A stretch of DNA of 64,000 nucleotides from Bacteroidia bacterium (GTDB taxonomy: Bacteria; Bacteroidota; Bacteroidia; Bacteroidales; Prolixibacteraceae). Below the pieces are notes generated by a model that was given only the letters and a program-made list of their open reading frames with translations, did not search any database and had not been told where the DNA came from. How positions within the stretch are numbered: the first letter of the stretch is position 1; the number at the start of each line of letters is the position of its first letter. This document shows, piece by piece, positions 21,334-45,221 of the stretch. The stretch lies in NCBI GenBank assembly GCA_026391295.1, contig JAPLDS010000073.1, positions 1 through 64,000 of the forward strand, written 5' to 3'. The position numbers and the translations under genes are program-made.

Positions 21334-24033
21334 CTATTTTATCACAAAGAGATAACTTCCAGCTGGAAGGGTCAACTGATAAACCGAAGGGGCGAGTTTC
21401 TGAAAATGAAACAAGCCCTTTTCTTTCAGCTCTACCCCATTTTGGAAAATTTTAGCTCCTTTAAGGACTAGCTTAGCCGTGCTACTCGGTGGTACCGTAA
21501 CCTGATATTCCGTTTTACCCTTCGATTTTTTCCAAGCAGAGCGAATCTCTCCGTAAGGACCAATATGAGTCGCCTCGAAAGATCCTAGTCCCTTCACAAA
21601 ATCGGGTTTTAAGATGATATTTTTAAATCCAGGCAGTGTCTCGTCGGGATAGATACCACCTAACGACTTATAGAACCAAGCCCCAATCTCGCCAAACATA
21701 ATATGATTCAAGGAGATATCTGATTTGGCATCAATAGGCCAATTTTCATACAGTGTTGTGGCTCCGTTCACAATCCACCAACCCCAGGAAGGGAATGTCT
21801 TTTGAAGGGCTAACTCATAGGCCAGATCAGCATAACCATTGGCGCTCAAAGCATTTAAGATGGTTTTGGTGCCCAGCAAACCTACATCAAGATGCTGCCC
21901 ATCGGCAATCACGCGTTTCGCTAAGTTTTCAGCCACCTTACTGCGCAATTCATCCGGCACGACACCCCAATGCAGCGGTGCACTTAACTCGGTTTGAAGT
22001 CCAGTTCCATAGATCCCAGTCTCCCGATTTAGATATTTAGCGTTAATGGCATTTTTGATCTTCTCGGCCAGCGCCTCATATTTCAGATGATCGGCATTTT
22101 TACCAAGCACCAAAGCCGCTTTTGATAAGATTTTAGCATCGGTAAAATAAAATAGCGAAGAGGTTAATTCCCTTGGTGCTTTTGACTTCACCGGTATCCA
22201 GTCGCCTAAGCCCCAATCGGTCAAGCCAGATGGACTAATTTGAGTGATATGATCGACATAGCGGGTGATGTTAGGATAGCAATCCGATAAGAGTTTAGAA
22301 TCGCCATAAAAGAGATAAACATTCCAAGGAATGATAGCGATGGTACTGGTCCAGTCTGGTCCATTAGCCCAGGTATAACCCCACCCACTCGTTGGAATAA
22401 TTGCAGGCAAGACGCCATTGGGCTGCTGCTCATCACGATGATCGGCTAACCATTTCTCATAAACGGTAATCCCATCAAAATTGTAAAGTCCCACTTCAAT
22501 AGCGGTATGTGCATCACCAGTCCAACCATTCTTTTCACGATGTGGACAATCGGTCGGATAGCCAAATAGGTTGGATAAATAACTGCTATTTGTTGCTTTC
22601 CAGATCTTGTTTAGAACACTATCTGAGGAGGTAATATGTCCAACTGGAGGGACATCGCTATGCATAAAATAGCCTGTCAGACTCTCTTTGGTAAGCTCAA
22701 CAGGCTTATCGCTTGTGACCTCAACATACTGAAAACCTTTGTAGTTAAAGGTTGGCTTAAAGATCTCTTCTCCCTCCCCTTTTAAGGTATAGATATCGGT
22801 CGAAAATGGGTCCAGATCGTTGGTTGGACGGTAGTGTGCGTCGATGTTCGAGATGTCGACTAACTTATTAGATCCCAATCGTTCACCATGCTTTAATCGG
22901 ATCACCGTACCCTTTTCACCGCGCACTTTTAATTGAGTTACACCAGCGATATTTCGACCCAAATCAAAAATATAATGGGTGTTACTGATCGTTGTTAATT
23001 TAGCCGTTTTGATCACTTCCACGTCCCGTATTGGCTGCAAAGATTGAGAAACCACATTCATGGAAGGGACATGAACAGGAATCGCATTTTTCCATAAAGC
23101 GTCATTAAATGCGCTAAGTTTCCAGCCATCTTGTTGCAGACGATTATCGATATGTTCTCCGGTATAAATACTATTGAAAATGATTGAGCTAAGTGATGTT
23201 TTCCAGTCTACACCTGAGGAGATAGTCTCTTCCGAACCATCGGTATAAGTCACCTTAACATCCATACAAAAGCGAGGGCGAGCACGCCATGGTGCCTGGT
23301 CGAAATACCAAACAGCCGTAGATTGATGGTTGTACCATCCATTGCCCAACAAGACGCCTAATGCATTCGTGCCTGAAGTCAATAATTTAGTGATATCGTG
23401 TGTGACATAGAGTGTACGGCGGTCGAAACGGGTATAAATGGGGTCGAGACGATGGTTTCCAACCTTTTCGCCGTTTACATAAAGTTCAAATAGTCCACCA
23501 GCAGCCACATAAGCGCGTGCAGAGCGAATCTGCTTGGTCACATTGAATGTTTTTCGAAAGATCGGTGCTGCTTTCAGGGTAATATCACGGGTATCGGTGA
23601 TCCAGGTACCTTTCCAATTTTGCATCTCCATCATGCCGGTTTCAAAACTTGCCACAGCCAATTTAGTCGATGGCTGACCTTTGGCATCCCATGTTTTTAG
23701 CGTCCAGAAGTATTTGGTGAAGGGATTTAAGACAGGACCTTGATAGTTAACCAGCATCTTGTCTGAATTCACTTTTCCGGTATACCAGGTGTCCCCAATT
23801 TCTTGAAGAACCTTTACTGAATCTGTCCCAACGATAATCTGATACGCTGATTGTGAGGCCTCAGGGGTGCGATCGTCAACATACCACGAAAAGCGAGGAT
23901 GGGTGACGTCGATACCGATTGGATTGATTAAATATTCGCATCTTAAATTTGTAGGTATCGATGCAGCAAGTAGCTTTTGAGACGGCAAGGCAAAGCCTAA
24001 GCACAGGAGAACAAAGCAAATTCGAGTTTTCAT
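21334..24033 (-). CDS. GH78 alpha-L-rhamnosidase
   Basis: The 899-residue secreted enzyme has a signal peptide (about 1-23), an Ig-like/beta-sandwich N-terminal part (ASIPTNLRCEYLINPIGID), a Bac_rhamnosid_N lectin-like domain and an (alpha/alpha)6 catalytic domain. The motif DCPHREKNGWTGDAH carries the conserved acidic residues, and the Glu in TTLYENWP is the expected second catalytic carboxylate. It would release terminal L-rhamnose from plant, algal or bacterial glycans. No SusC/SusD pair adjoins it, so it is not in a classical polysaccharide utilisation locus. Confidence 0.93.
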   Translation of the reverse strand: MKTRICFVLLCLGFALPSQKLLAASIPTNLRCEYLINPIGIDVTHPRFSWYVDDRTPEASQSAYQIIVGTDSVKVLQEIGDTWYTGKVNSDKMLVNYQGPVLNPFTKYFWTLKTWDAKGQPSTKLAVASFETGMMEMQNWKGTWITDTRDITLKAAPIFRKTFNVTKQIRSARAYVAAGGLFELYVNGEKVGNHRLDPIYTRFDRRTLYVTHDITKLLTSGTNALGVLLGNGWYNHQSTAVWYFDQAPWRARPRFCMDVKVTYTDGSEETISSGVDWKTSLSSIIFNSIYTGEHIDNRLQQDGWKLSAFNDALWKNAIPVHVPSMNVVSQSLQPIRDVEVIKTAKLTTISNTHYIFDLGRNIAGVTQLKVRGEKGTVIRLKHGERLGSNKLVDISNIDAHYRPTNDLDPFSTDIYTLKGEGEEIFKPTFNYKGFQYVEVTSDKPVELTKESLTGYFMHSDVPPVGHITSSDSVLNKIWKATNSSYLSNLFGYPTDCPHREKNGWTGDAHTAIEVGLYNFDGITVYEKWLADHRDEQQPNGVLPAIIPTSGWGYTWANGPDWTSTIAIIPWNVYLFYGDSKLLSDCYPNITRYVDHITQISPSGLTDWGLGDWIPVKSKAPRELTSSLFYFTDAKILSKAALVLGKNADHLKYEALAEKIKNAINAKYLNRETGIYGTGLQTELSAPLHWGVVPDELRSKVAENLAKRVIADGQHLDVGLLGTKTILNALSANGYADLAYELALQKTFPSWGWWIVNGATTLYENWPIDAKSDISLNHIMFGEIGAWFYKSLGGIYPDETLPGFKNIILKPDFVKGLGSFEATHIGPYGEIRSAWKKSKGKTEYQVTVPPSSTAKLVLKGAKIFQNGVELKEKGLFHFQKLAPSVYQLTLPAGSYLFVIK

Positions 24034-24464: not shown

Positions 24465-25196
24465 ATGCACGCCTCTACGCCTCTAAATAGCTGTGATTCC
24501 TGCGAAGGATGCCAATATAACTGCTGCCTTTCCGGCAATTGCGGTGCCGCAAATATTTTTGTTGGTTTAAGTCAAGAAGATCTGCGGTCGATTATGGAGA
24601 CCAAGCGTCAGATTAAGTTTCGTGCTGGCGAGACCATCACCAAGCAAAACACCCCTTTAACCCATATTATCTGTATCAAGAGCGGGCTAGCGAAGGTTGT
24701 TTCTGAAGGTCCAAAGGGGAAGAATCTCATTGTTGATTTGATCAAAGACAACAATATTTTTACGGGTGGTGGCACTGTCATTGATGACTGGCATCACTTC
24801 ACGGTTGCGGCATTAACCGATATCGAGTGTTGTTTTATTGAGACTTCAAAGATCTTCAGTTATCTTTCGACTAATAGTTCTTTTGCGATTGATTTAATGA
24901 AGCTTTACAATGGTCAGCATATTAAAATGCACCAGACTTTGATTAATCTTATTCACAAGTATATGCCAGGCAGAGTAGCGGACACGTTACTTTATTTAAA
25001 GAACAATGTATACGACACTAATCCGTATCAATTTATCTTAACCAAGCAAGAACTCGCCGAAATGTCGGGCATGACCAAGGAGAGTTTTATCCGAAATTTA
25101 AAAGATTTTGAAGATTCTGGAATTATCAATCACTCCCGTAATTCCATCCACATCCTTAAGGAAGAGGATCTTCTGGAGATTAGCCGGAATGGCTAG
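24465..25196 (+). CDS. Crp/Fnr-family regulator with an FNR-like cysteine set
   Basis: Starting from ATG 24465 (a TTG four codons earlier is possible), the 243-residue protein has an N-terminal Cys cluster at 10, 13, 16, 20, 21 and 26, a cyclic-nucleotide-binding-like beta-roll (about 30-145), a dimerisation helix and a CRP-type helix-turn-helix (QELAEMSGMTKESFIRNLKDF). Cys122 and Cys123 sit in IECCFIETS, the place corresponding to Cys122 of E. coli FNR. Together these could hold an oxygen-labile Fe-S cluster. In the recognition helix, Lys-Glu-xxx-Arg is closer to CRP than to FNR. The gene precedes the cytochrome cluster and is a likely redox regulator of it. Confidence 0.85.
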   Translation: MHASTPLNSCDSCEGCQYNCCLSGNCGAANIFVGLSQEDLRSIMETKRQIKFRAGETITKQNTPLTHIICIKSGLAKVVSEGPKGKNLIVDLIKDNNIFTGGGTVIDDWHHFTVAALTDIECCFIETSKIFSYLSTNSSFAIDLMKLYNGQHIKMHQTLINLIHKYMPGRVADTLLYLKNNVYDTNPYQFILTKQELAEMSGMTKESFIRNLKDFEDSGIINHSRNSIHILKEEDLLEISRNG

Positions 25197-25202
25197 TTGA
25201 CA

Positions 25203-25225
25203 TATATCAATCAAATCTTGATATA
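25203..25225 (+). promoter_or_regulatory. Hairpin directly after the FNR-like gene
   Basis: TATATCAA (25203-25210) and TTGATATA (25218-25225) form a perfect 8-bp dyad with a 7-nt centre. There is no T-run. It may end or process the regulator transcript or be an AT-rich operator. Confidence 0.4.
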
Positions 25226-25251
25226 ACACCCCCTAATTCTTGTTATAAATC

Positions 25252-25299
25252 CATGTTCGTGAGTGAACATGTCAATGGTTTTTTCCCCGAATAAATTTG
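25252..25299 (+). promoter_or_regulatory. Palindrome plus -7 box upstream of the cytochrome genes
   Basis: CATGTTC-N6-GAACATG (25252-25271) is a perfect dyad. TAAATTTG (25292-25299) fits the -7 consensus, and no -33 TTTG is present at the proper distance. If transcription starts about 5 nt after the box, the dyad centre lies near -42, the classic class II activator position for CRP/FNR proteins. The FNR-like protein encoded just upstream is the obvious candidate, by inference. Confidence 0.45.
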
Positions 25300-25490
25300 C
25301 TGTCTTGGTACTTTTACTCCCGTAATCAGTACTTAATAACGATTGATTTCGCAAGAGGTTATTCTTAACAAAAAACAGCATATATCATGAATCTTCTAAA
25401 TTCAAACATTTAACTTGAACCTTCGAGCTTTTAGCTAACTGGTTTTCGGAAAAAATTTCTATTAATCACAACCCTTTCACTCACAAATCT

Positions 25491-26834
25491 ATGAAACTCA
25501 AGAGACATTACCCGATCTTATTTTTTGTTTTTGTTCTTCTAATTGCAATAACATCCTGTGTTAAAGAAGGCCCGATGGGATTAACAGGGGCAGCTGGGAA
25601 AGATGGCACGAATGGAGCAGATGCCAATGAAACCTGTAAGATGTGTCACAATCCAGCAAAAGTGGATATAATCTCTACTCAATTTCAGCTCTCCAAACAT
25701 GACTATGGCGAGGCTGCCTTTGAAGAAGCTGGCAACACAAGTTGTGCTCCATGTCACTCGCAAGAAGGATTTAAATATGTGGTGAAAAGTAAAGTTCCTA
25801 GTAGCTTTACTTTAAATTCAACGACGAACAAGTATGTCAATGATTATGCTAGTATTACATCCGCAGCCTATGGTGAGCTAAAATGTGCAACATGCCATAG
25901 TTCATTGCATAATACGTATACATCTTCTGATCTCCCATCCCTTACAACTGTGGCTCCAGTCTCAATGACCATGTGGGGAGGAAAAAAAGAGATTAATCTC
26001 GCAGCAGATGGAGGTAATAGTAACTTATGTGTTAAATGTCATCAGCCACGTCCATTCAGCAATGCCCTAACAGGAAATGTCCTTGACTACAATCTTTTAG
26101 CAACGACAACTGGTGTTGTTTACGACGGAAACCCAGTGGGTTCAACAAACATCATCAAACCTAGCTATAGAACACATACCCATTATGGAACTGTTGGAGC
26201 GATTTATGCAGGTACTGGCGGGGTTGAATTTGCAGGTACACTTCCTTACACTAGCTCGAAGCATACCACTGCAGCGTCTTGTATCGATTGTCATATGGGA
26301 GCCAAAGGTGGACAAAGTGATTTAGTTGGAAAAGCTGGTGGACACACATTCGTTGCGAAAGGAAATCTTACAACCTGTAATACTACTGGATGCCATTCTA
26401 CAGCGATCACTTCAACTAGCACGACCTTATGGATCAATCCAAGAGCAGAAATTAAAACGCTCCTAAACACATTGGCATCTAAACTTGTAATTAGTGGAGT
26501 AGAAATCTTAAATAGAAATCCAGATGCGACCACGAATTTATGGGCAGGTATTACTACAAACAATTACGATGGATATTTAAATATTTACGATCCAATCACC
26601 AATCCTACAGGACAAACATACAATGTAAGTAGCTTCAAATATGTAGGAACCCCTCCATCAACATGGTCTGCTGCACAGATTGCATACAATGCCACCTTGC
26701 CAACCATTACATTGTCCTATAGCCAAATGGGAGCCCTAATTAATTTCCAACTTTGTCTTAGAGAGTATAGCTTAGGAATACACAATTTTGCTTACAGCAA
26801 AGCTTTACTAACCAATTCTATTGCCAAATTATAA
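25491..26834 (+). CDS. Six-haem c-type cytochrome lipoprotein
   Basis: The 447-residue protein has a lipoprotein signal ending at Cys23 (AITSC), then six collagen-like G-X-Y triplets (about 27-44). Five CXXCH haem motifs (Cys49, 85, 132, 180, 264) and one CX4CH motif (Cys296) follow, plus a haem-free C-terminal part. No CXXCK site is present, so it is not a NrfA-type nitrite reductase. It probably sits on the outer membrane or periplasmic face as an electron carrier or terminal extracellular cytochrome; which face cannot be told. The motif spacing matches no reductase I know. It opens the cytochrome run and is separated from the next gene by a hairpin with a T-run. Confidence 0.85.
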   Translation: MKLKRHYPILFFVFVLLIAITSCVKEGPMGLTGAAGKDGTNGADANETCKMCHNPAKVDIISTQFQLSKHDYGEAAFEEAGNTSCAPCHSQEGFKYVVKSKVPSSFTLNSTTNKYVNDYASITSAAYGELKCATCHSSLHNTYTSSDLPSLTTVAPVSMTMWGGKKEINLAADGGNSNLCVKCHQPRPFSNALTGNVLDYNLLATTTGVVYDGNPVGSTNIIKPSYRTHTHYGTVGAIYAGTGGVEFAGTLPYTSSKHTTAASCIDCHMGAKGGQSDLVGKAGGHTFVAKGNLTTCNTTGCHSTAITSTSTTLWINPRAEIKTLLNTLASKLVISGVEILNRNPDATTNLWAGITTNNYDGYLNIYDPITNPTGQTYNVSSFKYVGTPPSTWSAAQIAYNATLPTITLSYSQMGALINFQLCLREYSLGIHNFAYSKALLTNSIAKL

Positions 26835-26858
26835 AATAAGGTATTCGCGTGAAAAGAT

Positions 26859-26900
26859 AAAAAAAGACTTCTTTTTTTAAAAAAATTGGAGTCTTTTTTT
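26859..26900 (+). terminator. Terminator-like hairpin after the six-haem lipoprotein gene
   Basis: AAAAAAAGACT (26859-26869) pairs with AGTCTTTTTTT (26890-26900), with an AT-rich centre and a T-run. It could end transcription or set the ratio between the first gene and the downstream cytochrome genes. Confidence 0.6.
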
Positions 26901-26925
26901 AATCCTAACATTAAAAATGTAAGTT

Positions 26926-27297
26926 ATGAAAAGACGTTTAATATTCCTTATTCCCATTCTGCTTGTTGTCGTAAGTTGTAAATATGATTTCATATTACCA
27001 GTGCCAGAAGCTCCGGTAACCGCGGGGGTAAGTTTTGCAACTAAGGTTGTTCCAATCTTTACCACAGGAAATAAATGCACTTCGTGCCATAAGGCAGGTG
27101 GACAGTCCCCTGACTATACTGCAGAAAAAGCATATAGCTCTATTGTACCAAACTTAGTTAATACTAGTTCCCCCAACCAGAGCCTAATTTATACTTTAGC
27201 AGGACCTTCAACTTCAACACACAATTGGAAAAAGCTTTCTGCCAGTGAGGCCGCTATTATCTTACAATGGATAACAGAAGGATCAAAAAACAACTAG
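26926..27297 (+). CDS. Small one-haem lipoprotein
   Basis: The 123-residue protein has a lipoprotein signal ending at Cys18 (VVVSC), a single CTSCH haem motif at Cys51, and a C-terminal LSASEAAIILQWITEG segment like the end of cytochrome c-type domains. It resembles the small haem lipoproteins found near c-type cytochrome genes in Bacteroidota. Lack of an obvious Met ligand leaves the haem's sixth ligand open. It is followed after 22 nt by the DUF5777 barrel gene, so lipoprotein and barrel are likely made together. Confidence 0.75.
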   Translation: MKRRLIFLIPILLVVVSCKYDFILPVPEAPVTAGVSFATKVVPIFTTGNKCTSCHKAGGQSPDYTAEKAYSSIVPNLVNTSSPNQSLIYTLAGPSTSTHNWKKLSASEAAIILQWITEGSKNN

Positions 27298-27319
27298 TAG
27301 AAATTTAACATTCGCAATC

Positions 27320-28249
27320 ATGAAAAAATATATCCTATTTATTATCCTGTTCTCCCTGATTGGAACATATGTTTATGCTCAAGATGGGACGGCTGATACA
27401 ACCGCTGTTGTCGTCGAAAAAGACAAACCCGTTCGATCCCCATTTGAAAGCGGATATCTTATTGATGCACAGACCACAGTAATCCAGCCAGCACATACGC
27501 TTGAGGCTGTCATTCAACATAAATTTGGAACCATACAAAATGGTCACTCCGACTTATGGGGTATATTCTCACCTGGTGCCAGCATTCGATTAGCTTTAGA
27601 TTATGTTCTTGTCAAGAACTTCCAAGTAGGTGCAGGGATCAACAACAAAAAAATGACTAGTGACTTCAATGTAAAATGGACACTGCTTCAACAAACCCGA
27701 AAAAATACGGTACCATTTGCTGTTACTGTGTTTGGGAATGTTGGAATTGACGGTCGAAATATCAGCGAATTTGAATCCGGAAATGTTCAAGTTGCTCATG
27801 AATTAGGACAGGTTAATTTATTCAAATTCCCAGATCGTTTAAGCTATTTCTCTGAACTTATTGTAGGGCGTAAATTCTCAGAGAAGATTTCACTTCAAGC
27901 CGCAGTGAGCTTCACGCATTTTAATGTAATCGGATTGCCCTATGACCATGACAAAGTGGCCTTACATCTAAATGGGCGATTCAAGGTATCACCCCAAGGG
28001 TCTATAATCTTCAATTACGATTATCCACTAAAGATTAAAGATATTTCAGAGCAATGGACTTTTGTTAATCCAGCAAAACCAAATCTAGCATTCGGTTATG
28101 AAGTATCAACAAGCACCCACTCTTTTCAAATGTATATGGCTACTGCTACAGGATTGTTAGCCCAAGAAAGCATAATGAGCAATCAAAATGACTTAACCAA
28201 GCAGCAGTTTGTAATTGGATTTAATATTACAAGGCTCTGGGGATTCTAG
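27320..28249 (+). CDS. DUF5777-family outer-membrane beta-barrel protein
   Basis: The 309-residue protein has a signal peptide (about 1-20, ending VYAQ) and then alternating hydrophobic strands typical of a barrel. The C-terminus is VIGFNITRLWGF, with a terminal aromatic as expected for outer-membrane insertion. The SPFESGYLIDAQTTVIQPAHTLE region and the following HKFGTI are typical of DUF5777. The function of this family is not established. Its place between two haem lipoproteins and periplasmic cytochromes suggests a barrel that may hold or expose a cytochrome, as in porin-cytochrome conduits; this is inference. Confidence 0.8.
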   Translation: MKKYILFIILFSLIGTYVYAQDGTADTTAVVVEKDKPVRSPFESGYLIDAQTTVIQPAHTLEAVIQHKFGTIQNGHSDLWGIFSPGASIRLALDYVLVKNFQVGAGINNKKMTSDFNVKWTLLQQTRKNTVPFAVTVFGNVGIDGRNISEFESGNVQVAHELGQVNLFKFPDRLSYFSELIVGRKFSEKISLQAAVSFTHFNVIGLPYDHDKVALHLNGRFKVSPQGSIIFNYDYPLKIKDISEQWTFVNPAKPNLAFGYEVSTSTHSFQMYMATATGLLAQESIMSNQNDLTKQQFVIGFNITRLWGF

Positions 28250-28314
28250 AACTAAACCAGATTACTGTTCCTCAATTTTGACTTTGATTTTTTAACCTTA
28301 AAAAAGACAACAAA

Positions 28315-28737
28315 ATGAAACGGACTTTACGTAATTTAATCATTGGTATTTTAGGCGGGTTCTGTATGCTGATGCTGTTAAGCTTTGCAGCATCGCAAGA
28401 TCAAAAAACTGGTGCACCATGGGTTGTTCCAGCAAAATACAAAGCCATGAAAAACCCACAAAAGGGCGATCCTGCAGCCCTTAACACGGGGAAAATGCTT
28501 TATACCAAACATTGCAAATCGTGCCATGGAGGCTCTGGTGCTGGTGATGGTCCCAAAGCCAACAGCATGAAAACTAAAGTTAACAGCTTTAAAGATTCTA
28601 AATTCCAGGCCCAGAACGATGGAGATCTCTATTTTGAATCGTTTGTCGGTCGTGATGAGATGCCGAATTTCGAAAAGAAGATCCTAGACGATGAAGAGCG
28701 TTGGGCTATCGTCAGTTTTATTCGGACTTTGAAATAA
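28315..28737 (+). CDS. Class I c-type cytochrome (small periplasmic carrier)
   Basis: The 140-residue protein has an N-terminal hydrophobic export segment (about 7-26) and a single CKSCHGG haem motif at Cys67. GRDEMPNF supplies the probable axial Met, and the ending WAIVSFIRTLK is typical of class I cytochromes. It would shuttle one electron between inner-membrane quinol oxidases and outer partners. It is clearly a paralogue of the protein encoded at 30645. A stable hairpin follows the stop, so its transcript level may differ from that of downstream genes. Confidence 0.9.
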   Translation: MKRTLRNLIIGILGGFCMLMLLSFAASQDQKTGAPWVVPAKYKAMKNPQKGDPAALNTGKMLYTKHCKSCHGGSGAGDGPKANSMKTKVNSFKDSKFQAQNDGDLYFESFVGRDEMPNFEKKILDDEERWAIVSFIRTLK

Positions 28738-28741
28738 TCTC

Positions 28742-28762
28742 CCTTAGCCGCTTTGGCTAAGG
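28742..28762 (+). promoter_or_regulatory. Hairpin after the first small cytochrome gene
   Basis: CCTTAGCC (28742-28749) and GGCTAAGG (28755-28762) form a perfect 8-bp stem with a 5-nt loop and no T-run. It is likely an mRNA-stabilising or processing element. An equivalent hairpin follows the paralogous gene at 31064. Confidence 0.5.
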
Positions 28763-28790
28763 TCCTACTTTAATCTTTCACAGACACAAA

Positions 28791-29732
28791 ATGCGAACCT
28801 CGTATCTTTTGTTCCTGTTTGCGTTAATCCTTCACGGAATAACGCTTCAGGCCGAAGAAAAAAATGAAAATACTGATGTGAATGGCTGTCTTAAATGCCA
28901 TTCACATCAAACCATCACGTTTACCAACACGCTAACTAAGCATGAAGATAAACGGTTAATGAACCCATTTTACATCTTAGATAAAGACCATTTTGCTAAA
29001 GGGGTACACGCGAAGTTTAAATGCATCGATTGCCATTCTTCTGAGTACGAACAGTATCCTCACAAAGCCGAATTAAAACTAGAGCCCTTAAACACCTGTC
29101 TAGACTGTCATGGAGGAGATGTAAAGTATGCCTCTTTTCAATTTGAAAAGATTGATGAGGAGTTTCAAAAAAGCATCCATTTTAAAAAAATCGGTGAAAG
29201 TTTCACCTGTTCCAAATGTCACAATCAGCATTATTACCAAGCTAAATCAAGGAATAGCGCCATTGTAAGTGATATCGTATTATTTAGCAATGAGATGTGC
29301 ATGTCATGCCATAGCAACAACACAAAATTTCAATTGCTTTCTGATAAGTTAAAACCAGCATTAGCGCAAATTCACGATTGGCTACCCAATCAGGAGCTCC
29401 ATTTTAAGAATGTACGGTGCATAGAATGTCACACCCAGTTGGTTGATTCTTTAGCAGTCTCACATAATATTTTGCCCAAAGAGAAAGCCTTGAAGAATTG
29501 TGAAGAGTGTCATTCGAAAAACTCGATGCTTGAAGCTTCGTTGTACAAATACAAAAACCTCCAATCAAGAAATCAAGAAGGGAAGCTAAACACAATCATC
29601 TCGAATAAATCATATGTTATTGGCGCCTATCAGAATACTTGGCTACAACGAATCAGCTTTATCATCTTGGCACTTGTATTACTAGGTATTGGATTCCATG
29701 TGATTGCACGAATTATGAAGAAACTGATATGA
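28791..29732 (+). CDS. Seven-haem c-type cytochrome with C-terminal membrane anchor
   Basis: The 313-residue protein has a signal peptide (about 1-21), seven CXXCH motifs (Cys33, 78, 103, 140, 170, 210, 237) and a C-terminal transmembrane helix (about 287-306) with a short basic tail. It would be a periplasmic multihaem domain held at the inner membrane. The b-type cytochrome gene overlaps its stop by 4 nt (ATGA), implying a two-subunit complex that takes electrons from quinol. The combination resembles Geobacter CbcL, which fuses a multihaem c domain with a b-type domain, but here the parts are separate genes. No catalytic reductase subunit is linked. Confidence 0.85.
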   Translation: MRTSYLLFLFALILHGITLQAEEKNENTDVNGCLKCHSHQTITFTNTLTKHEDKRLMNPFYILDKDHFAKGVHAKFKCIDCHSSEYEQYPHKAELKLEPLNTCLDCHGGDVKYASFQFEKIDEEFQKSIHFKKIGESFTCSKCHNQHYYQAKSRNSAIVSDIVLFSNEMCMSCHSNNTKFQLLSDKLKPALAQIHDWLPNQELHFKNVRCIECHTQLVDSLAVSHNILPKEKALKNCEECHSKNSMLEASLYKYKNLQSRNQEGKLNTIISNKSYVIGAYQNTWLQRISFIILALVLLGIGFHVIARIMKKLI

Positions 29733-30361
29733 AAGAGTCTGAAAACAAGATCTACTTCTACCCGATCTGGATTCGAATTTGGCACGGTCTAAATGCCATT
29801 GGAATTCTGGTTTTGATCTACACTGGGATTACCATGTATTATTCAAACCGTGGATTTCAACTGATGGATTTCCAACTTGCGATCAACATGCATAATATTA
29901 CGGGGATCATGGTCGGTCTAAGTTATCTGATTTTCAGCATAGGCAACCTAAGAACAACGAATCATAAACACTACAAAGTAAAACGCATTGGCATGTTTGA
30001 GAAGGTTTTAAAACAAAGCCAATATTATATGGTAGGCATGTTTAATAATCAGCATCCTCCCTTTCCCCTATCAGAAAAGAGAAAATTTAATCCACTACAA
30101 AAATTGATCTATTCAATTATTATGTATGTTTTTATGCCCGGACTTATTATTACCGGCATTGGTTTGTTGTTCCCCGAACTAATTATTGAAAATGTGTATC
30201 ATCTAAGTGGAATATTTCTGACTGCCCTACTTCATGCCTCGCTTGGTTTTTTAGTCTCCATATTTTTAATCATTCACTTGTATGTTGCCTCCATTGGCAA
30301 ACACCCCTTAGAAAACTTTAAAAGCATCCTGAACGGATACCACGACCCCAACAAGCATTAG
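29729..30361 (+). CDS. b-type cytochrome membrane subunit (HydC/PhsC-like)
   Basis: The start at 29729 is chosen because it overlaps the upstream stop by 4 nt and gives a normal N-terminus; a longer frame from 29639 would run inside the previous gene. The 210-residue protein has four hydrophobic helices with His in IWHGLN, NMHNITG, LLHASLG and IIHLYVA, the usual ligands for two b haems. The family passes electrons between quinones and periplasmic c haems or hydrogenase/reductase subunits. With the seven-haem partner encoded upstream, it would serve as the quinol-oxidising half. Confidence 0.85.
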   Translation: MKESENKIYFYPIWIRIWHGLNAIGILVLIYTGITMYYSNRGFQLMDFQLAINMHNITGIMVGLSYLIFSIGNLRTTNHKHYKVKRIGMFEKVLKQSQYYMVGMFNNQHPPFPLSEKRKFNPLQKLIYSIIMYVFMPGLIITGIGLLFPELIIENVYHLSGIFLTALLHASLGFLVSIFLIIHLYVASIGKHPLENFKSILNGYHDPNKH

Positions 30362-30396
30362 ACCTTATAATTCAACAGATTAACCACGAAGAATCA

Positions 30397-30484
30397 TTCT
30401 AAATAATGAAAAATGCTTATTTAGAACCAATAAAAATCAATTTTATTCCTGCTTTATATCAACAGAACTTGATCGTTATATCAA
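30397..30484 (+). promoter_or_regulatory. Dyads upstream of the second cytochrome module
   Basis: In the 283-nt gap before 30645, TTCTAAATA (30397-30405) and TATTTAGAA (30418-30426) form a perfect 9-bp inverted repeat. TTGAT-N6-ATCAA lies at 30469-30484. The second has FNR-type half-sites, though with spacer 6 rather than 4. They suggest a separate, possibly redox-controlled promoter for 30645-32708. No TAnnTTTG box was found. Confidence 0.4.
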
Positions 30485-30644
30485 TAGGCATTAGTCTTTG
30501 AAAAAAGATATCCTTCCTACTTTTGAATAGTCATTCAGACGGATTTACATAGTTGTTTTCATTGAATTAAAGTTCAACATTACGTCTTTCTTTCCTAACA
30601 ACATTCGGCTGCTTGGTTTATGTTTAATCTTTAAAACAACTCGT

Positions 30645-31064
30645 ATGAAAAATTTCAGTATTCTCTTAAAAAGTTTGAGTCTGATGATGTGCCTTGTAGC
30701 CATTTCGTCCTTTGTATCAGCCCAAGATCAAAAACCTGGCGCGGCCTGGGAGATCCCAGCAAAATACAAAGCGATGAAAAACACCCTTAAAGGAGATGCA
30801 GCTTCAGTTAATGTTGGCAAGAACTTGTATGCGAAACATTGCAAATCATGCCATGGCGGTGCTGGATTAGGCGATGGCCCAAAGGCATCTAGCATGAAAA
30901 CAAAAATTGGATCATTTAAGGATGCCAAATTTCAATCTCAAGTAGATGGCACATTGTACTACCAAATTTTCGTAGGACGCGATGAGATGCCTGCTTTTGA
31001 TAAAAAACTAGCAGAAGAAGATGACAGATGGGCCCTTGTAAATTTTGTCCGCTCACTAAAATAA
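30645..31064 (+). CDS. Class I c-type cytochrome, paralogue of the 28315 gene product
   Basis: The 139-residue protein has a signal peptide ending near VSAQ (about 26), a CKSCHGG haem motif at Cys66 and GRDEMPAF with the probable axial Met. Most of the mature sequence matches the product of 28315 (for example PAKYKAMKN, KSCHGG, GDGPKA, SMKTK, FKDAKFQ), so the two come from duplication. This copy precedes the seven-haem NapC/NirT gene, whereas the other precedes the b/c module. A 16-bp hairpin follows its stop. Confidence 0.9.
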   Translation: MKNFSILLKSLSLMMCLVAISSFVSAQDQKPGAAWEIPAKYKAMKNTLKGDAASVNVGKNLYAKHCKSCHGGAGLGDGPKASSMKTKIGSFKDAKFQSQVDGTLYYQIFVGRDEMPAFDKKLAEEDDRWALVNFVRSLK

Positions 31065-31073
31065 ACATCCTTT

Positions 31074-31109
31074 TAATTCGGCACTGAGTGAATACTCGGT
31101 GTCGAATTA
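31074..31109 (+). promoter_or_regulatory. Long hairpin after the second small cytochrome gene
   Basis: The 16-nt arms at 31074-31089 and 31094-31109 pair throughout (two G-U pairs) around a GAAT loop, with no T-run. The free energy should be strong. It probably protects the 3' end of the cytochrome mRNA or cuts read-through into the next gene. Confidence 0.6.
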
Positions 31110-31211
31110 CTTGCTCTCTTTAACCAATTACTCAGCTATAAAGGGCAATAAACCTACCTAGTAGGGATTAACTTTAGTCTATTTTCCTCTTTACCCTCTC
31201 AATCTACGGAT

Positions 31212-32708
31212 ATGCAATTGCCAAAATCTTCTAAAAACTTGCTAACCATTGCTGGTGTAATCATAGCAATATCAAGTCTCGCATTGATTCTACTCTTGTT
31301 TATTGTCTCTAATTTTATCTTCCCAGATAATAATTTTCTAGGCATATTTATTTATATGGCTTTGCCAGCGTTATTATTCTTTGGACTTCTTCTTATTCCA
31401 ATTGGGATGATTCGCACAAAAAAGCGTAATAAAAAAAATGAAACAGCAGACGAGCAATATCCACTTTGGGATTTCAACAAACCATCAACACGAAATGCCG
31501 CTGCCATATTTCTTGTTGGAACTATCCTTTTGGCCATTCTCTCCTCGATTGGAAGCTTTCAGGCTTTTCACATCACCGAATCAAATGAGTTTTGCGGTAA
31601 ATTATGTCACGTGACGATGAAACCAGAATATACCGCTTATCAAAATTCACCACACTCCAGAGTAAACTGCGTAGAATGCCATGTTGGATCAGGAGCTGGA
31701 TGGTATATCCGCAGTAAAATGACTGGTTTATATCAGGTTTATGCAGTTATCACGAATAATATACCTCATCCCATAGCAACACCTATAACCAATTTACGTC
31801 CTGCAATGGAGACTTGTGAGCATTGCCATTGGCCTCAAAAATTTTACGATCGGAAACAGAAAAATAAAATATCCTATTTAGCCGATGAGACTACCTCGGC
31901 TTGGAATATTCACCTTCAGATGAAGACCAGTGCCAGCAATAGTGCTCAAGGTATTGCGCAAGGAATACATTGGCATATTAACCCTGATGTGAAAATTGAA
32001 TACAAGACCACTTCGGCAAACCGCGAAAAGATCCCTTGGGTTAGATACACGAATCTTAAGAGTGGTGCAGTCACCATCTATGAAGATACTAAAGAGAAAA
32101 CCACAACTTCTCAATTGGATTCTATGGAGATGCGGAAAATGGATTGTATCGACTGCCATAACAGACCATCTCACAATTACAAGAACCCTCAAGACTTTAT
32201 TGATGAGCTGATTACTGCAGGAAAAATACCTCACTCTTTACCAGACGTGAAGATCGTGGCTATGAACATTCTAAATCAAGATTATTCGACAACAGACAGT
32301 GCGATGATCGCCATTGAGAAACAAGTGAATGAATATTACACTTCGATGTATCCGAAACTTGTAGCAAGTAAGAAAAATGAGATCGATCAGACTATTGCTG
32401 GTATTAAGGAGGGGTTCAGTCAGAACATATTCCCAGAGATGGGTGCTAAATGGTCGGCTCATCCCAATCACTTAGGCCACCTTGAATCGGTAGGTTGCGA
32501 CCGTTGTCATAACGATTTGCATATCTCTACTGGAGGGAAAAAGATCTCACGCGATTGTAATCTATGCCATAATATTGTCGCTCAAGGAGCCGATTCAACG
32601 ATGGAAGTCGCTAGTTCTTTCAAGCCTCTTGAATTCAAACATCCAGTAGATATTGGGGATAAATGGAAGACTAAGTTATGTTCTGAATGCCACTCTAAAT
32701 TGTATTGA
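31212..32708 (+). CDS. Seven-haem NapC/NirT-family membrane cytochrome (ImcH-like layout)
   Basis: The 498-residue protein has three predicted transmembrane helices (about 9-33, 42-65, 96-118), then a periplasmic region with one CX3CH motif (Cys128, FCGKLCHVTM) and six CXXCH motifs (Cys153, 202, 312, 429, 449, 490). The first part matches NapC/NirT/NrfH quinol dehydrogenases. Three helices, about 500 residues and seven haems match what is described for Geobacter ImcH, an inner-membrane cytochrome needed for high-potential extracellular acceptors. No reductase gene follows; a terminator closes the run. Electron transfer to the small cytochrome encoded upstream is a reasonable inference. Confidence 0.85.
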   Translation: MQLPKSSKNLLTIAGVIIAISSLALILLLFIVSNFIFPDNNFLGIFIYMALPALLFFGLLLIPIGMIRTKKRNKKNETADEQYPLWDFNKPSTRNAAAIFLVGTILLAILSSIGSFQAFHITESNEFCGKLCHVTMKPEYTAYQNSPHSRVNCVECHVGSGAGWYIRSKMTGLYQVYAVITNNIPHPIATPITNLRPAMETCEHCHWPQKFYDRKQKNKISYLADETTSAWNIHLQMKTSASNSAQGIAQGIHWHINPDVKIEYKTTSANREKIPWVRYTNLKSGAVTIYEDTKEKTTTSQLDSMEMRKMDCIDCHNRPSHNYKNPQDFIDELITAGKIPHSLPDVKIVAMNILNQDYSTTDSAMIAIEKQVNEYYTSMYPKLVASKKNEIDQTIAGIKEGFSQNIFPEMGAKWSAHPNHLGHLESVGCDRCHNDLHISTGGKKISRDCNLCHNIVAQGADSTMEVASSFKPLEFKHPVDIGDKWKTKLCSECHSKLY

Positions 32709-32751
32709 AATTAGCGAAGGCGCATTCATACATTATTATATAGTTTAACAG

Positions 32752-32788
32752 GCGATGCTGTACCACTGGTGCGGCATCGCTTTTTTTT
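32752..32788 (+). terminator. Intrinsic terminator ending the cytochrome cluster
   Basis: GCGATGC (32752-32758) pairs with GCATCGC (32774-32780), with further pairing inside, followed by eight T. It lies 44 nt after the NapC/NirT gene stop. Confidence 0.85.
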
Positions 32789-33394: not shown

Positions 33395-34852
33395 ATGAAA
33401 AGATCTTTTCTAATCCTTCTAATCCTATTCGCTTTCACCCAGACAAAAGCAAGTGATAAACCCAAAGTAGTAGCATCACCTCAACCGGTCTATCCCCTTC
33501 CTACCGACAGGCAACTAGCATGGCATGAGATGGAGCAGTATGCCTTTATACACTTCACAACAAACACCTTCACAGGGAAAGAGTGGGGCTTTGGCGACGA
33601 GAGTCCAGAAGTCTTTAATCCATCTGCCATGGATGTTAACCAGTGGGTTAAAGTGATTAAAGAATCAGGGCTAAAAGCAGTCGTATTGACCTGTAAACAT
33701 CATGATGGATTTTGTTTGTGGCCAAGTAAATACACAGAGCATTCAGTAAAGAATAGTAAATGGAAAAATGGACAAGGGAATGTGGTCAAAGAAGTGGCTG
33801 AAGCCTGTCGAAAATACGGTCTAAAATTTGGCGTATACCTCTCGCCATGGGACCGCAATAACAAAGATTATGGGACACCAGCTTATATTGAATATTATAG
33901 GAATCAGCTAAAAGAGTTGTTTTCTCTATATAGTCCGATCTTTGAAATGTGGTTCGACGGAGCTAATGGAGGCGATGGATATTATGGTGGAGCGAGAGAA
34001 AAGCGCAGTATTAATGGTGCCACCTATTACGATTGGCCGAAGACAACAAGCATGGTACGTGGGTTGGAGCCAAACATTATTTTCTTTAGCGACGCAGGAC
34101 CGGACATCAGATGGTGTGGCAATGAACGTGGATATGCAGGAGAGACTAACTGGGGTAATATCACCAAAGACTCTATTTATGCCGGCAAGGATGGCATTCA
34201 GCAATTATTAAATAGTGGATCAGCTGATGGAACAAGTTATGTTCCGGCCGAAGTAGATGTATCTATTCGTCCAGGATGGTTCTACCATGCAACAGAAGAT
34301 TCTAAGGTAAAAACACCGGAAAAACTTTTTGAGATCTACCTATCATCTGTAGGAAGAGGATCGAATCTTATTCTAAATATCCCACCTGATCGTAGAGGCC
34401 TTTTGCATGAAAATGATGTTAAATCGTTACTTGGATGGAAAAAATTAATCGATGACGCATTCCAAAACAATCTTGCAAAGGGAGCAAAAATTAAGGCAGA
34501 TAGTTATCGGGGAGAATCAGGAAAATATGCACCGTCAAATACTCTAGATGGCAAGAAAGAGACATACTGGGCTACCGATGACAACAAAGTTAATGGAGAA
34601 CTAACAATTGACCTAAAGGGAAAACACGTCGTTAAATATGTTTTAATGCAAGAGTTTATTAAACTTGGTCAACGTGTAAAAGGATTTGAAATTTCAGTCT
34701 TAAAAGAGAATCAATGGGTAAAAGTTGGAAAAGGAACAACAATTGGATACAAAAAGATAGTGAAACTCGAACCGACAGAAACGACTCAAATTAAAATCTC
34801 CATAATAGATTCAAAAGCAGCGCCATTGCTATCAAACATAGAAATTTACTAA
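33395..34852 (+). CDS. GH29 alpha-L-fucosidase with C-terminal discoidin-like domain
   Basis: The 485-residue protein has a signal peptide (about 1-19) and a GH29 (beta/alpha)8 domain. Conserved segments are EQYAFIHFTTNTF, TCKHHDGFCLWPS and EMWFDGANGG, where the Asp is the expected nucleophile. From about residue 370 a beta-sandwich of the F5/8-type C kind follows (SNTLDGKKETYWATDD, ELTIDLKG), probably for sugar binding. It would remove alpha-L-fucose from glycans in the periplasm or outside the cell. The subgroup with ANGG after the nucleophile tends to act on linked fucose rather than aryl-fucosides, but this cannot be fixed here. Confidence 0.92.
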   Translation: MKRSFLILLILFAFTQTKASDKPKVVASPQPVYPLPTDRQLAWHEMEQYAFIHFTTNTFTGKEWGFGDESPEVFNPSAMDVNQWVKVIKESGLKAVVLTCKHHDGFCLWPSKYTEHSVKNSKWKNGQGNVVKEVAEACRKYGLKFGVYLSPWDRNNKDYGTPAYIEYYRNQLKELFSLYSPIFEMWFDGANGGDGYYGGAREKRSINGATYYDWPKTTSMVRGLEPNIIFFSDAGPDIRWCGNERGYAGETNWGNITKDSIYAGKDGIQQLLNSGSADGTSYVPAEVDVSIRPGWFYHATEDSKVKTPEKLFEIYLSSVGRGSNLILNIPPDRRGLLHENDVKSLLGWKKLIDDAFQNNLAKGAKIKADSYRGESGKYAPSNTLDGKKETYWATDDNKVNGELTIDLKGKHVVKYVLMQEFIKLGQRVKGFEISVLKENQWVKVGKGTTIGYKKIVKLEPTETTQIKISIIDSKAAPLLSNIEIY

Positions 34853-42961: not shown

Positions 42962-44647
42962 TTACTCCCCCAGTTTTTTATAGCGAATACGATGGGGGGT
43001 ACTATCGCCCAGTCGTTTCTTCTTGTTTTCTTCGTATTCGGAATAGCTTCCTTCGAAGTAATAGACTTGTGAATTTCCCTCAAAAGCTAAGATATGCGTG
43101 GCAACGCGATCTAAGAACCAGCGATCATGGGAGATCACTACGGCGCAACCGGCAAAGCTATCCAAACCCTCTTCTAGTGCTCTTAAAGTGTTAACATCAA
43201 TATCATTGGTTGGCTCATCGAGGAGCAGCACATTAGCTTCTGACTTTAATGTCAAAGCGAGGTGAAGTCTATTCTTCTCCCCACCTGATAATACGCCACA
43301 CTTTTTCTCTTGATCAGCACCACTGAAATTAAAGCGTGAAACATATGCACGTGCATTTGTCATGCGACCACCCACCATCACCTCATCAGTTCCACCTGAA
43401 AGCACCTGATAGACTGTTTTATCATTAACGATAGCTTCGTGACCTTGATCAGCATAACCAATTTTCACGGTCTCACCAACAGAAAAACTACCAGAATCTA
43501 TCTTCTCAAGTCCGAGGATCATCCGGAACAAGGTTGTTTTACCTGCACCATTGGGACCGATAACACCCACGATACCATTAGGTGGAAGGACAAAGTCGAG
43601 GCCCTCAAACAACAAGCGATCGCCATAGGCCTTTGAAACGCCGTGTGCTTCAATGACCTTATCACCCAAGCGAGGTCCATTCGGGATAAACAACTCTAGT
43701 TTATCCTCTTTCTGCTTCACATCTTCGTTCAATAATTTCTCATAAGCACCTAGTCGAGCTTTTGATTTGGCTTGACGAGCCTTTGGACTCATCTTCACCC
43801 ACTCTAGTTCTCGCTCAAGTGTTTTACGACGTTTAGAAACACCTTTCTCTTCCATTTCTAAACGTTTAGACTTCTGTTCAAGCCAACTTGAATAGTTGCC
43901 CTTCCAAGGGATCCCTTCTCCCCTATCGAGTTCCAGAATCCAACCAGCTACATTATCCAAGAAATATCGATCATGGGTAATACAGATAACTGTTCCTTTA
44001 TATTGCTGCAAATGAAGTTCTAACCACTCCACAGATTCTGCATCAAGGTGGTTGGTTGGCTCATCAAGTAATAAAATATCGGGTTGTTTAAGCAATAAAC
44101 GACACAGAGCTACTCGGCGCCTCTCGCCTCCTGACAGCACTTTAACCGAGGTATCACCGTCTGGACAACGTAGAGCGTCCATCGCACGTTCTAACCTATT
44201 ATTTAGATTCCAAGCATCAGTAGCATCAATTTTTTCTTGCAATACCGCTTGACGATCCATCATCTTATCCATAACATCTGGATTCTCATAGACCTCAGGC
44301 AGACCAAACTTCTGATTAATATCTTCGTATTCCTCCAAAATATCTACAATATCTTGAGCGCCTTCTTGAACGATGCCCATTACTGTCTTCGTATCATCTA
44401 ATTCAGGCTCTTGCGACAAATGACCCACGGTATATCCAGCAGAAAATGCCAACTCTCCGTTAAAATCTTTCTCTAGACCTGCGATGATTTTTAAAAGCGT
44501 TGACTTACCAGAACCATTTAAACCAATGATCCCAATCTTAGCTCCCAAATAAAACGAAAGCGAGATATCTTTAATAACGGTTTTTTGTGGTGGGTAAGTC
44601 TTGCTTACCTTATACATTGAGAATATAACTTGCCTATCTTCAGCCAT
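42962..44647 (-). CDS. ettA: EttA, energy-dependent translational throttle (ABC-F)
   Basis: The 561-residue soluble protein has two ABC ATPase domains: Walker A GLNGSGKST and GPNGAGKTT, signatures LSGGERRRVALCRLLL and LSGGEKNRLHLAL, and Walker B LLLDEPTNHLD and LLLDEPTNDID. The linker between them and the arm region suit EttA, as does the N-terminus (MYKVSKTYPPQKTVIKDIS). It binds the ribosomal E site and gates the first elongation steps according to ADP/ATP ratio. Length is close to E. coli EttA. Confidence 0.93.
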   Translation of the reverse strand: MAEDRQVIFSMYKVSKTYPPQKTVIKDISLSFYLGAKIGIIGLNGSGKSTLLKIIAGLEKDFNGELAFSAGYTVGHLSQEPELDDTKTVMGIVQEGAQDIVDILEEYEDINQKFGLPEVYENPDVMDKMMDRQAVLQEKIDATDAWNLNNRLERAMDALRCPDGDTSVKVLSGGERRRVALCRLLLKQPDILLLDEPTNHLDAESVEWLELHLQQYKGTVICITHDRYFLDNVAGWILELDRGEGIPWKGNYSSWLEQKSKRLEMEEKGVSKRRKTLERELEWVKMSPKARQAKSKARLGAYEKLLNEDVKQKEDKLELFIPNGPRLGDKVIEAHGVSKAYGDRLLFEGLDFVLPPNGIVGVIGPNGAGKTTLFRMILGLEKIDSGSFSVGETVKIGYADQGHEAIVNDKTVYQVLSGGTDEVMVGGRMTNARAYVSRFNFSGADQEKKCGVLSGGEKNRLHLALTLKSEANVLLLDEPTNDIDVNTLRALEEGLDSFAGCAVVISHDRWFLDRVATHILAFEGNSQVYYFEGSYSEYEENKKKRLGDSTPHRIRYKKLGE

Positions 44648-44800
44648 GATTTTACTTTTTTATTTGAGTCCCAAAATTCGTATTTTTAATCAGATTTGAC
44701 AATTTATTTTTTAGTTATTCCTATTTATTGTGAAATAGCAGGCAAAATAGACCTTCTCACTTCTCCAACGGTGAGAAACTGCAGATTCACATAAATAAAC

Positions 44801-44808
44801 TAATTTTG
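44801..44808 (+). promoter_or_regulatory. Candidate -7 box of the small membrane-protein gene
   Basis: TAATTTTG fits TAnnTTTG and lies 26 nt before the ATG at 44835. It makes the upstream TTG start (44826) less attractive. No -33 element was identified. Confidence 0.4.
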
Positions 44809-44834
44809 TCAAAGGGTTATTAAACTTGAACATT

Positions 44835-45221
44835 ATGAAAGAATTTCTTTCCATCGCGGTGATATCGATCTTGCTTTTCTTCGCGTTATCCATTTACTGG
44901 AAATATAGCTTTACCTACAGTGATGGTTACAGAGCTGGATTGCTGCAGAAATTTTCAAGAAAAGGGAATCTATTCAAGACCTATGAAGGTGAAATGATCT
45001 TAAGCAGTGTTCAAAGTAATGCGAACGTTGCCATTGCATCGGAGAAATTTCTATTCTCAGTTACAGATCAGAAGGTGGCTCAAGAAATTGAGAAAGCGCA
45101 AGGCCAAACAATAATTGTCCATTACCGCGAGAAAAATGGCACCCTGCCTTGGAAAGGTGAGAGTCATTATTTTGTCGATAGTATTAAGATCGCGCCATCC
45201 TTAAATCGTGGCTTGCGCTAA
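44835..45221 (+). CDS. Conserved hypothetical single-helix membrane protein
   Basis: The 128-residue protein has one N-terminal transmembrane helix (about 4-22) and a small periplasmic domain with YSDGYRAGLLQKFSRKGNLFKTYEGEM, a pattern found in short Bacteroidota proteins sometimes mislabelled as 6-phosphogluconate dehydrogenase. No enzyme motif is visible. The ATG at 44835 is used; a TTG three codons earlier is possible. It converges with the GH78 gene (33-nt gap). Confidence 0.7.
   Translation: MKEFLSIAVISILLFFALSIYWKYSFTYSDGYRAGLLQKFSRKGNLFKTYEGEMILSSVQSNANVAIASEKFLFSVTDQKVAQEIEKAQGQTIIVHYREKNGTLPWKGESHYFVDSIKIAPSLNRGLR

Follow-up and report, generated by a model that had tools for sequence, protein, structure and literature searches.

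A conserved FNR-linked cytochrome cluster in Bacteroidales and its possible role in anaerobic electron export

Where do electrons go when they enter a cytochrome cluster that encodes no classical terminal reductase? The question is raised by nine reading frames at 24465-32708 of a stretch of DNA from a member of the Prolixibacteraceae (assembly GCA_026391295.1, contig JAPLDS010000073.1, positions 1 to 64,000 of the forward strand); the whole of this 64,000-nucleotide stretch is called the window below. The host genome is 2.93 Mb and 97.5% complete, and its nearest relatives are freshwater Prolixibacteraceae metagenome-assembled genomes. A preliminary description, made from the DNA letters, had read the locus as a route from quinone to the outer membrane. 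The best answer at present is that it encodes an FNR-controlled anaerobic electron-export module, and we give this reading a probability of roughly 60%. The verified frames, an FNR-like regulator and eight cytochrome-related genes, lie in the order fnr, mhcA, lipoC, DUF5777 barrel, cytc1, mhcB, cytb, cytc2, and imcH-like. The features are, with lengths in amino acids (aa), transmembrane helices abbreviated TM and expectation values as E:

24465..25196, + strand: FNR/CRP-family regulator, 243 aa (Pfam cNMP_binding, HTH_Crp_2), found beside the cluster in nearly all loci.
25197..25210, + strand: FNR box TTGACATATATCAA upstream of mhcA (pattern TTGAY-N4-RTCAA).
25491..26834, + strand: mhcA, hexahaem lipoprotein of the NrfA superfamily, OcwA-like, candidate terminal cytochrome (lipobox before Cys23; six haem motifs).
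25566..25628, + strand: collagen-like Gly-X-Y spacer of mhcA between lipid anchor and haem domain (seen in the sequence; conserved in 23 orthologues).
26926..27297, + strand: lipoC, monohaem c-type lipoprotein, probable barrel partner (lipobox, one CTSCH).
27320..28249, + strand: DUF5777 outer-membrane beta-barrel, about 12 strands (PF19089, E 6e-67; AlphaFold model).
28315..28737, + strand: cytc1, small class I cytochrome c with one haem (PF00034 / PF13442).
28791..29732, + strand: mhcB, periplasmic seven-haem cytochrome with a C-terminal TM helix (seven CXXCH, conserved His; TM 282-310; Cytochrome_C7).
29729..30361, + strand: cytb, b-type membrane cytochrome and mhcB partner (PF01292, E 2e-21; overlapping ATGA with mhcB).
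30645..31064, + strand: cytc2, second small class I cytochrome c (PF13442).
31212..32708, + strand: imcH-like seven-haem inner-membrane quinol oxidase of the NapC/NirT family (PF03264; 498 aa, three N-terminal TM helices).
32750..32782, + strand: strong hairpin resembling an intrinsic terminator, 3' of the cluster (15-bp stem, then a T run).

Reading frames, motifs, and Pfam matches agree with the gene content first described, that is two haem lipoproteins, a DUF5777 protein, two small class I cytochromes, mhcB with its b-type partner, and a NapC/NirT protein. Five CXXCH and one CX4CH motif are found in mhcA, one haem motif in each of lipoC, cytc1, and cytc2, seven CXXCH in mhcB, and one CX3CH (CGKLCH) and six CXXCH in imcH. 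All of the eight consecutive genes that had been described are present, but they probably make up two or three transcription units, since cytc2 is flanked by gaps of 283 bp (to cytb) and 147 bp (to imcH).

In the proposed module, two inner-membrane components would oxidize quinol: the seven-haem protein of the ImcH type, and mhcB with cytb as a pair that resembles CbcL split in two. The two small class I cytochromes would carry the electrons through the periplasm, and at the outer membrane lipoC and the DUF5777 barrel of 12 strands would jointly pass them on to mhcA. This hexahaem lipoprotein with an NrfA/OcwA fold, kept off the membrane by its collagen-like spacer, would then reduce an extracellular acceptor, for example Fe(III)/Mn(IV) minerals, humics, or flavins.

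When relatives were scanned with each species represented by one genome, 29 loci were obtained, and the order fnr-mhcA-lipoC-DUF5777-(cytc)-mhcB-cytb, usually followed by imcH, is retained in about 25 of these when contig ends are allowed for. The order-keeping loci belong to Prolixibacteraceae and Marinifilaceae, and cultured carriers of the cluster include Draconibacterium, Mariniphaga, Maribellus, Sunxiuqinia, Gaoshiqia, and Ancylomarina (locus L051). Of 20 loci with ImcH that were sampled from the order as a whole, ten also have the complete core, while the other ten contain imcH alone or with other modules. Since the gene order recurs in both sets, the cluster is not a chance arrangement, and the conserved order that the preliminary description had proposed to look for has been found. 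When an imcH profile was run against 295 genomes of the order, 70 matched at E<=0.001, and 57 of these matches are full-length or long. In a sample of 396 genomes of the phylum, strong imcH matches were obtained in 61, these being the host genome and members of families outside its class; no strong match was obtained in the other orders of the class. The imcH sequences of the order form a single clade (support 0.96) adjoining those of another class or classes. Strong mhcA-like and imcH-like matches were found together in 59 of the 396 genomes and one of them alone in 2 and 5, counts that are uncorrected for relatedness; a p-value for this co-occurrence is not a fair probability, since the genomes are related to one another. 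A gene of about 1040 aa is found downstream of the cluster in many loci and in L054 encodes CcsBA, involved in haem c maturation. Several related loci also encode a small four-haem cytochrome. The surroundings of some 70 related loci contain no multihaem protein with a CXXCK motif, and a plasmid search with imcH yielded only partial NapC.

The two inner-membrane quinol modules that had been proposed both correspond to known types. In Geobacter, ImcH oxidizes quinol in the service of extracellular electron transfer, and homologues have been reported solely in Fe(III) reducers (PMC6295460). The homologues of the Geobacter group are 495-519 aa long, with three N-terminal TM helices, one CX3CH beside a TM helix, and six CX2CH (PMC6295460). 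The last gene of the cluster has every one of these published architectural features: its product of 498 aa has TM helices at 7-41, 42-69, and 92-119, and CGKLCH at 128 is accompanied by six CX2CH, a haem pattern found in 20 of 20 orthologues (CGTLCH in L057). As in ImcH of Geobacter sulfurreducens, the similarity to NapC/NirT is confined to the N-terminal part. Matches to family models are to NapC/NrfH/TorC only, and the Protein Data Bank (PDB) contains only weak relatives of the NrfH type. The likeness to the G. sulfurreducens protein is one of published architecture, and the window imcH differs from it in being part of a fixed cluster with mhcA, lipoC, and DUF5777.

When it comes to the second module, mhcB and cytb look like the separated halves of a CbcL-like protein. 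They have in common with the CbcL/MtrH/MtoC family a periplasmic c7-type multihaem part and a PF01292 b-type membrane part; the seven CXXCH of mhcB are within the family range of 3-23 CX2CH, and cytb contributes the membrane histidines, five of which are invariant in 26 orthologues. The family members are single polypeptides of 416-1034 aa, whereas the window version, with its seven haems, is split over two genes. Genuine CbcL-like fusions of about 940 aa, which combine 19 CXXCH with a cytochrome b at the C-terminus, occupy the equivalent spot in related loci (L040, L049, L050, L053, L056, and L058), where they adjoin cytb and lie between cytb and imcH if imcH exists. In several relatives cytc2 is missing or has this fusion in its place. 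The nearest NCBIfam model for cytb is thiosulfate reductase cytochrome b, with a score below the cut-off. In two loci from other families of the order (L137 6599-9780 and L140 11355-14570), imcH is adjoined by a module encoding an iron-sulphur (FeS) protein, NrfD, a protein of about 300 aa, and a class I cytochrome, with an FNR-like gene of its own. Because this FeS-NrfD module is encoded together with a cytc and an fnr gene, it suggests that the quinol modules feeding the small cytochrome are interchangeable.

FNR-like control had also been suggested, and it is supported by the box upstream of mhcA. Of 23 orthologous regions, 20 have TTGAY-N4-RTCAA without deviation and three have it with one mismatch; as background, it is found in 4 of 492 regions upstream of other genes in these loci and in 0.3% of shuffles. 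One of these four boxes precedes a DUF5777 gene and another a 16-haem gene. The regulator has clustered cysteines in its N-terminal part and, at 122-123, a Cys-Cys pair, which we take to be the counterpart of Cys122 in Escherichia coli FNR. These cysteines are conserved in about 90% of 24 orthologues, and judged from the sequence they are as expected for an oxygen-sensing [4Fe-4S] FNR.

The preliminary description found no terminal enzyme in the cluster. This stands as far as CXXCK proteins and classical terminal reductases are concerned, but mhcA, a member of the NrfA superfamily and a candidate for the terminal protein, was missed. A PDB search with the mhcA profile yields octahaem nitrite reductase and NrfA at E 4e-11, with MtrC as a weaker match. 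Haem 2 aligns on the catalytic CXXCK haem of NrfA, but the motif is CXXCH in all 23 mhcA sequences. The NrfA catalytic tyrosine, presumably the third residue after the CXXCH of haem 3, is replaced by an invariant arginine, and the position that we take to be that of the catalytic histidine is variable. A C-terminal GxHNP segment found in several NrfA proteins is retained. Beyond the six haem-motif histidines, mhcA has five invariant histidines and one that is 96% conserved, so six bis-His haems seem possible.

The best PDB fold match of the predicted mhcA model is OcwA of Thermincola potens (6i5b; E 8e-4, probability 1.00). OcwA is a cell-surface terminal reductase in which haems 5-9 superimpose on NrfA, and its open haem is bound by CXXCH, not CXXCK, while slow nitrite reduction is retained (PMC6703420). 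It shares with mhcA a core of five haems of the NrfA type, in which the haem of the former active site has CXXCH, as well as the lack of CXXCK and the C-terminal bundle of three helices. The two differ in that OcwA has nine haems and mhcA six motifs, and mhcA is a lipoprotein of a Gram-negative organism with a collagen-like spacer and a putative surface position. This cytochrome is found in nearly every copy of the cluster, and a homologue in another family (L206) passes the Pfam cut-off for NrfA. Of the two possible roles, carrier and terminal protein, the latter is the more likely for mhcA. The preliminary description had named a consistently linked terminal reductase as a finding that would refute the route proposed, and the regular presence of an NrfA/OcwA relative touches on this point.

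The mhcA alleles also vary at haem 6 (window 26376-26396), which has a CX4CH motif (CNTTGCH and similar) in the window, L036, L038, L040, and L044 and CXXCH in other alleles. Remoter homologues from other families of the phylum (L216-L229) are mostly 660-915 aa long with nine CXXCH, and these may be OcwA-like proteins with nine haems.

The haem domain of mhcA has been swapped between close relatives. The DNA flanking mhcA is 77-87% identical between the window and L037, but the BLASTN similarity ends at 25628, which is the end of the spacer, and returns at 26852, just beyond the mhcA stop codon. Correspondingly, the mhcA proteins of these two loci are only 37% identical and the neighbouring proteins 72-94%. 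The mhcA of L037 is 65% identical to that of L039, while the remainder of L037 is nearest to the window and L036. Over 16 loci, mhcA identity has a correlation of 0.40 with that of the core genes, compared with 0.78-0.97 for the other genes. Exchange of a single exposed domain is typical of surface proteins, though other explanations exist, and mhcA may be located at the cell surface. A minimal signal for surface export has been described as C-X-K-(D/E)2 (PMC5080379), and the L206 homologue reads CTSDDP at its lipid cysteine.

An alternative is that mhcA is an outer-membrane-anchored small-molecule reductase of the NrfA superfamily, acting on nitrite, hydroxylamine, NO, or another soluble compound, and that the rest of the cluster supplies its electrons, as NrfH does for NrfA. 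The alignment with NrfA and octahaem nitrite reductases, with haem 2 on the catalytic haem, is in line with this, as are the score of the L206 homologue above the NrfA cut-off and the slow reduction of nitrite by OcwA in spite of its CXXCH (PMC6703420). The replacement of CXXCK by CXXCH in all copies, the invariant arginine in place of tyrosine, and the lack of conservation of the catalytic histidine nevertheless argue against it, and the conserved histidines would be enough for all six haems to be bis-His coordinated. Nor would exchange of haem domains be expected in a housekeeping periplasmic enzyme. A small-molecule reductase is therefore considered unlikely, although it is the strongest of the competing explanations.

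How the electrons of an export module would cross the outer membrane is a further question. The AlphaFold model of DUF5777 has about 12 strands, at a predicted local distance difference test score (pLDDT) of 80, and its fold matches in the PDB are FapF, OmpG, and COG4313 channels. MtrB-type conduits have 26 strands (PMC8406198), and a conduit of this type was rejected on the basis of the strand number and of FapF and OmpG being the nearest folds. The barrel was thus over-read in the preliminary description; an MtrB-like role is unlikely because of its size and because DUF5777 is widespread in Bacteroidota without the cluster. For the latter reason DUF5777 was also dropped as a marker for extracellular respiration. 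The family is found in 99 of 248 genomes, often beside a monohaem lipoprotein or YceI. The cluster shares with MtrCAB and the Geobacter porin-cytochrome complexes that haem lipoprotein genes lie beside an outer-membrane barrel and inner-membrane quinol oxidases. It differs from them in having about 12 strands instead of about 26, a monohaem instead of a decahaem partner, and an unrelated terminal cytochrome, and DUF5777 is not a large barrel of the kind that sheathes a multihaem cytochrome.

In nearly all cluster loci lipoC lies directly upstream of DUF5777. Outside the order, eight mhcA homologues have profile scores above 230 bits, and six of these adjoin a protein of 394-431 aa with one N-terminal haem motif, a barrel-like part, and an aromatic C-terminus; from their sequences these fused proteins look like they contain a barrel. 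One of the eight (L206) instead adjoins lipoC and DUF5777. Since fused and split forms occupy the same place beside mhcA, it is suggested that lipoC and DUF5777 function as a unit, and they may be a split monohaem barrel. Cyc2 is likewise a one-haem cytochrome combined with a barrel of modest size, fused as in the mhcA-linked proteins of other families (PMC8406198). It is defined by AXPXFAR[Q/K][T/Y] before CXXCH in a fused 16-strand porin, whereas haem and barrel are separate genes in the window and the fused relatives read RPQYSILQ(T/S)(Y/F)GTKC. It may tentatively be proposed, as an idea with rather more against it than for it, that a minimal conduit, consisting of lipoC in the 12-strand DUF5777, feeds an OcwA-like surface reductase with a lineage-swapped haem domain, and that this is a new type of porin-cytochrome system serving extracellular respiration in Bacteroidales.

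The outer-membrane part could instead handle a lipophilic or soluble redox compound in the periplasm, such as a quinone, an isoprenoid or flavin shuttle, or a metalloid, instead of solid acceptors, with DUF5777 as a channel. YceI is a polyisoprenoid-binding family, and elsewhere in the phylum DUF5777 genes adjoin YceI or a monohaem lipoprotein; the DUF5777 fold also resembles small substrate channels. But there is no YceI in the window cluster, and the mhcA homologues closest to it outside the order have the fused haem-barrel protein in place of DUF5777, which makes this explanation improbable. The second DUF5777 of the host (G000:C55, L067 8580-11871) lies between a three-haem lipoprotein with one CX4CH and YceI, a pairing that is common across the phylum. 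A literature search found no paper on DUF5777.

The rest of the genome is relevant to the fate of the electrons as well. The preliminary description reported no molybdoenzyme, CXXCK nitrite reductase, or oxidase in the cluster, and indeed neither NrfA nor a molybdopterin oxidoreductase was found in the whole genome, but three proteins of the haem-copper oxidase (COX1) family are encoded elsewhere in it. Judged by the neighbouring genes, one may be of the aa3 type, one of the cbb3 type, and one of a type resembling quinol nitric-oxide reductase, and because of these proteins the organism can probably respire oxygen. A FeS-NrfD-cytochrome c module is found on contig C78. Two other NapC/NirT proteins of the host were rejected as partners of the cluster; they are unrelated four-haem proteins fused to a formylglycine-generating-enzyme (FGE-sulfatase) domain (G000:C25 ~99109-100650 and G000:C6 ~43326-44864; L065 9110-10651 and L066 9327-10865), and both adjoin Gfo/Idh/MocA sugar oxidoreductases.

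It is conceivable that the cluster is a microaerobic route from quinol to cytochrome c that serves the oxidases and takes the place of alternative complex III or of a bc1 complex. Systems of the cbb3 type are often under FNR control, three COX1-family proteins are at hand, and the lack of any protein with a molybdopterin fold means that ActB of alternative complex III is probably absent. Such a route would, however, leave mhcA, lipoC, and DUF5777 without a role, and the module on C78 could already supply the oxidases. In other families of the phylum, moreover, large multihaem clusters are accompanied by imcH, CbcL-like, and mhcA-like genes. We regard the oxidase-feeding explanation as a long shot.

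Electron export to the cell exterior is thus preferred, with several observations weighing against it. A barrel as small as DUF5777 could not enclose a multihaem cytochrome, and genomes that lack strong imcH-like matches commonly combine it with a monohaem lipoprotein or YceI. The residues following the lipid cysteine of mhcA, C-V-K-E-G, are one acid short of the C-X-K-(D/E)2 signal (PMC5080379). The AlphaFold model of mhcA is of low confidence (pLDDT 66), with the C-terminal helices confident. The small cytochromes could serve the oxidases in the genome, and imcH is unaccompanied in several of the 20 sampled loci of the order.

Glycoside-hydrolase-type genes, rhamnosidase-like and fucosidase-like and named by sequence only, flank the cluster (window 21334-24033 and 33395-34852). 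Flanking genes of equal length also border it in L036, L037, and L039.

The route had been thought undescribed in this phylum. This holds for the cluster as such, of which no description was found in a literature search, but not for its parts or for the activity: a 2018 count for Bacteroidetes gave a single ImcH homologue and five of CbcL (Zhong and Shi, PMC6295460), and Labilibaculum (Marinifilaceae) has been shown to reduce Fe(III) and Mn(IV), by a route that is unknown (PMC5760507). The genes annotated as NrfHA in Labilibaculum manganireducens and L. filiforme may be imcH and mhcA. A search on ImcH and Bacteroidota gave unrelated papers only. The small periplasmic cytochromes and haem lipoproteins of the cluster were correctly recognized from the outset, and the best reading is that known quinol modules are combined with a new outer-membrane arrangement unlike known metal-respiration machinery.

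About one fifth of the genomes sampled from the order encode full-length ImcH-like proteins, among them cultured species of marine and sediment origin whose main known activity is polysaccharide degradation. If the proposed function is correct, many "fermenters" of lakes and sediments could discharge electrons onto iron or manganese. It would also help to answer how Labilibaculum, which shares its family with the cluster-bearing Ancylomarina (L051), reduces metals. Finally, mhcA would be the second NrfA-derived surface reductase after OcwA, combined with a crossing of the outer membrane that is not of the MtrB type.

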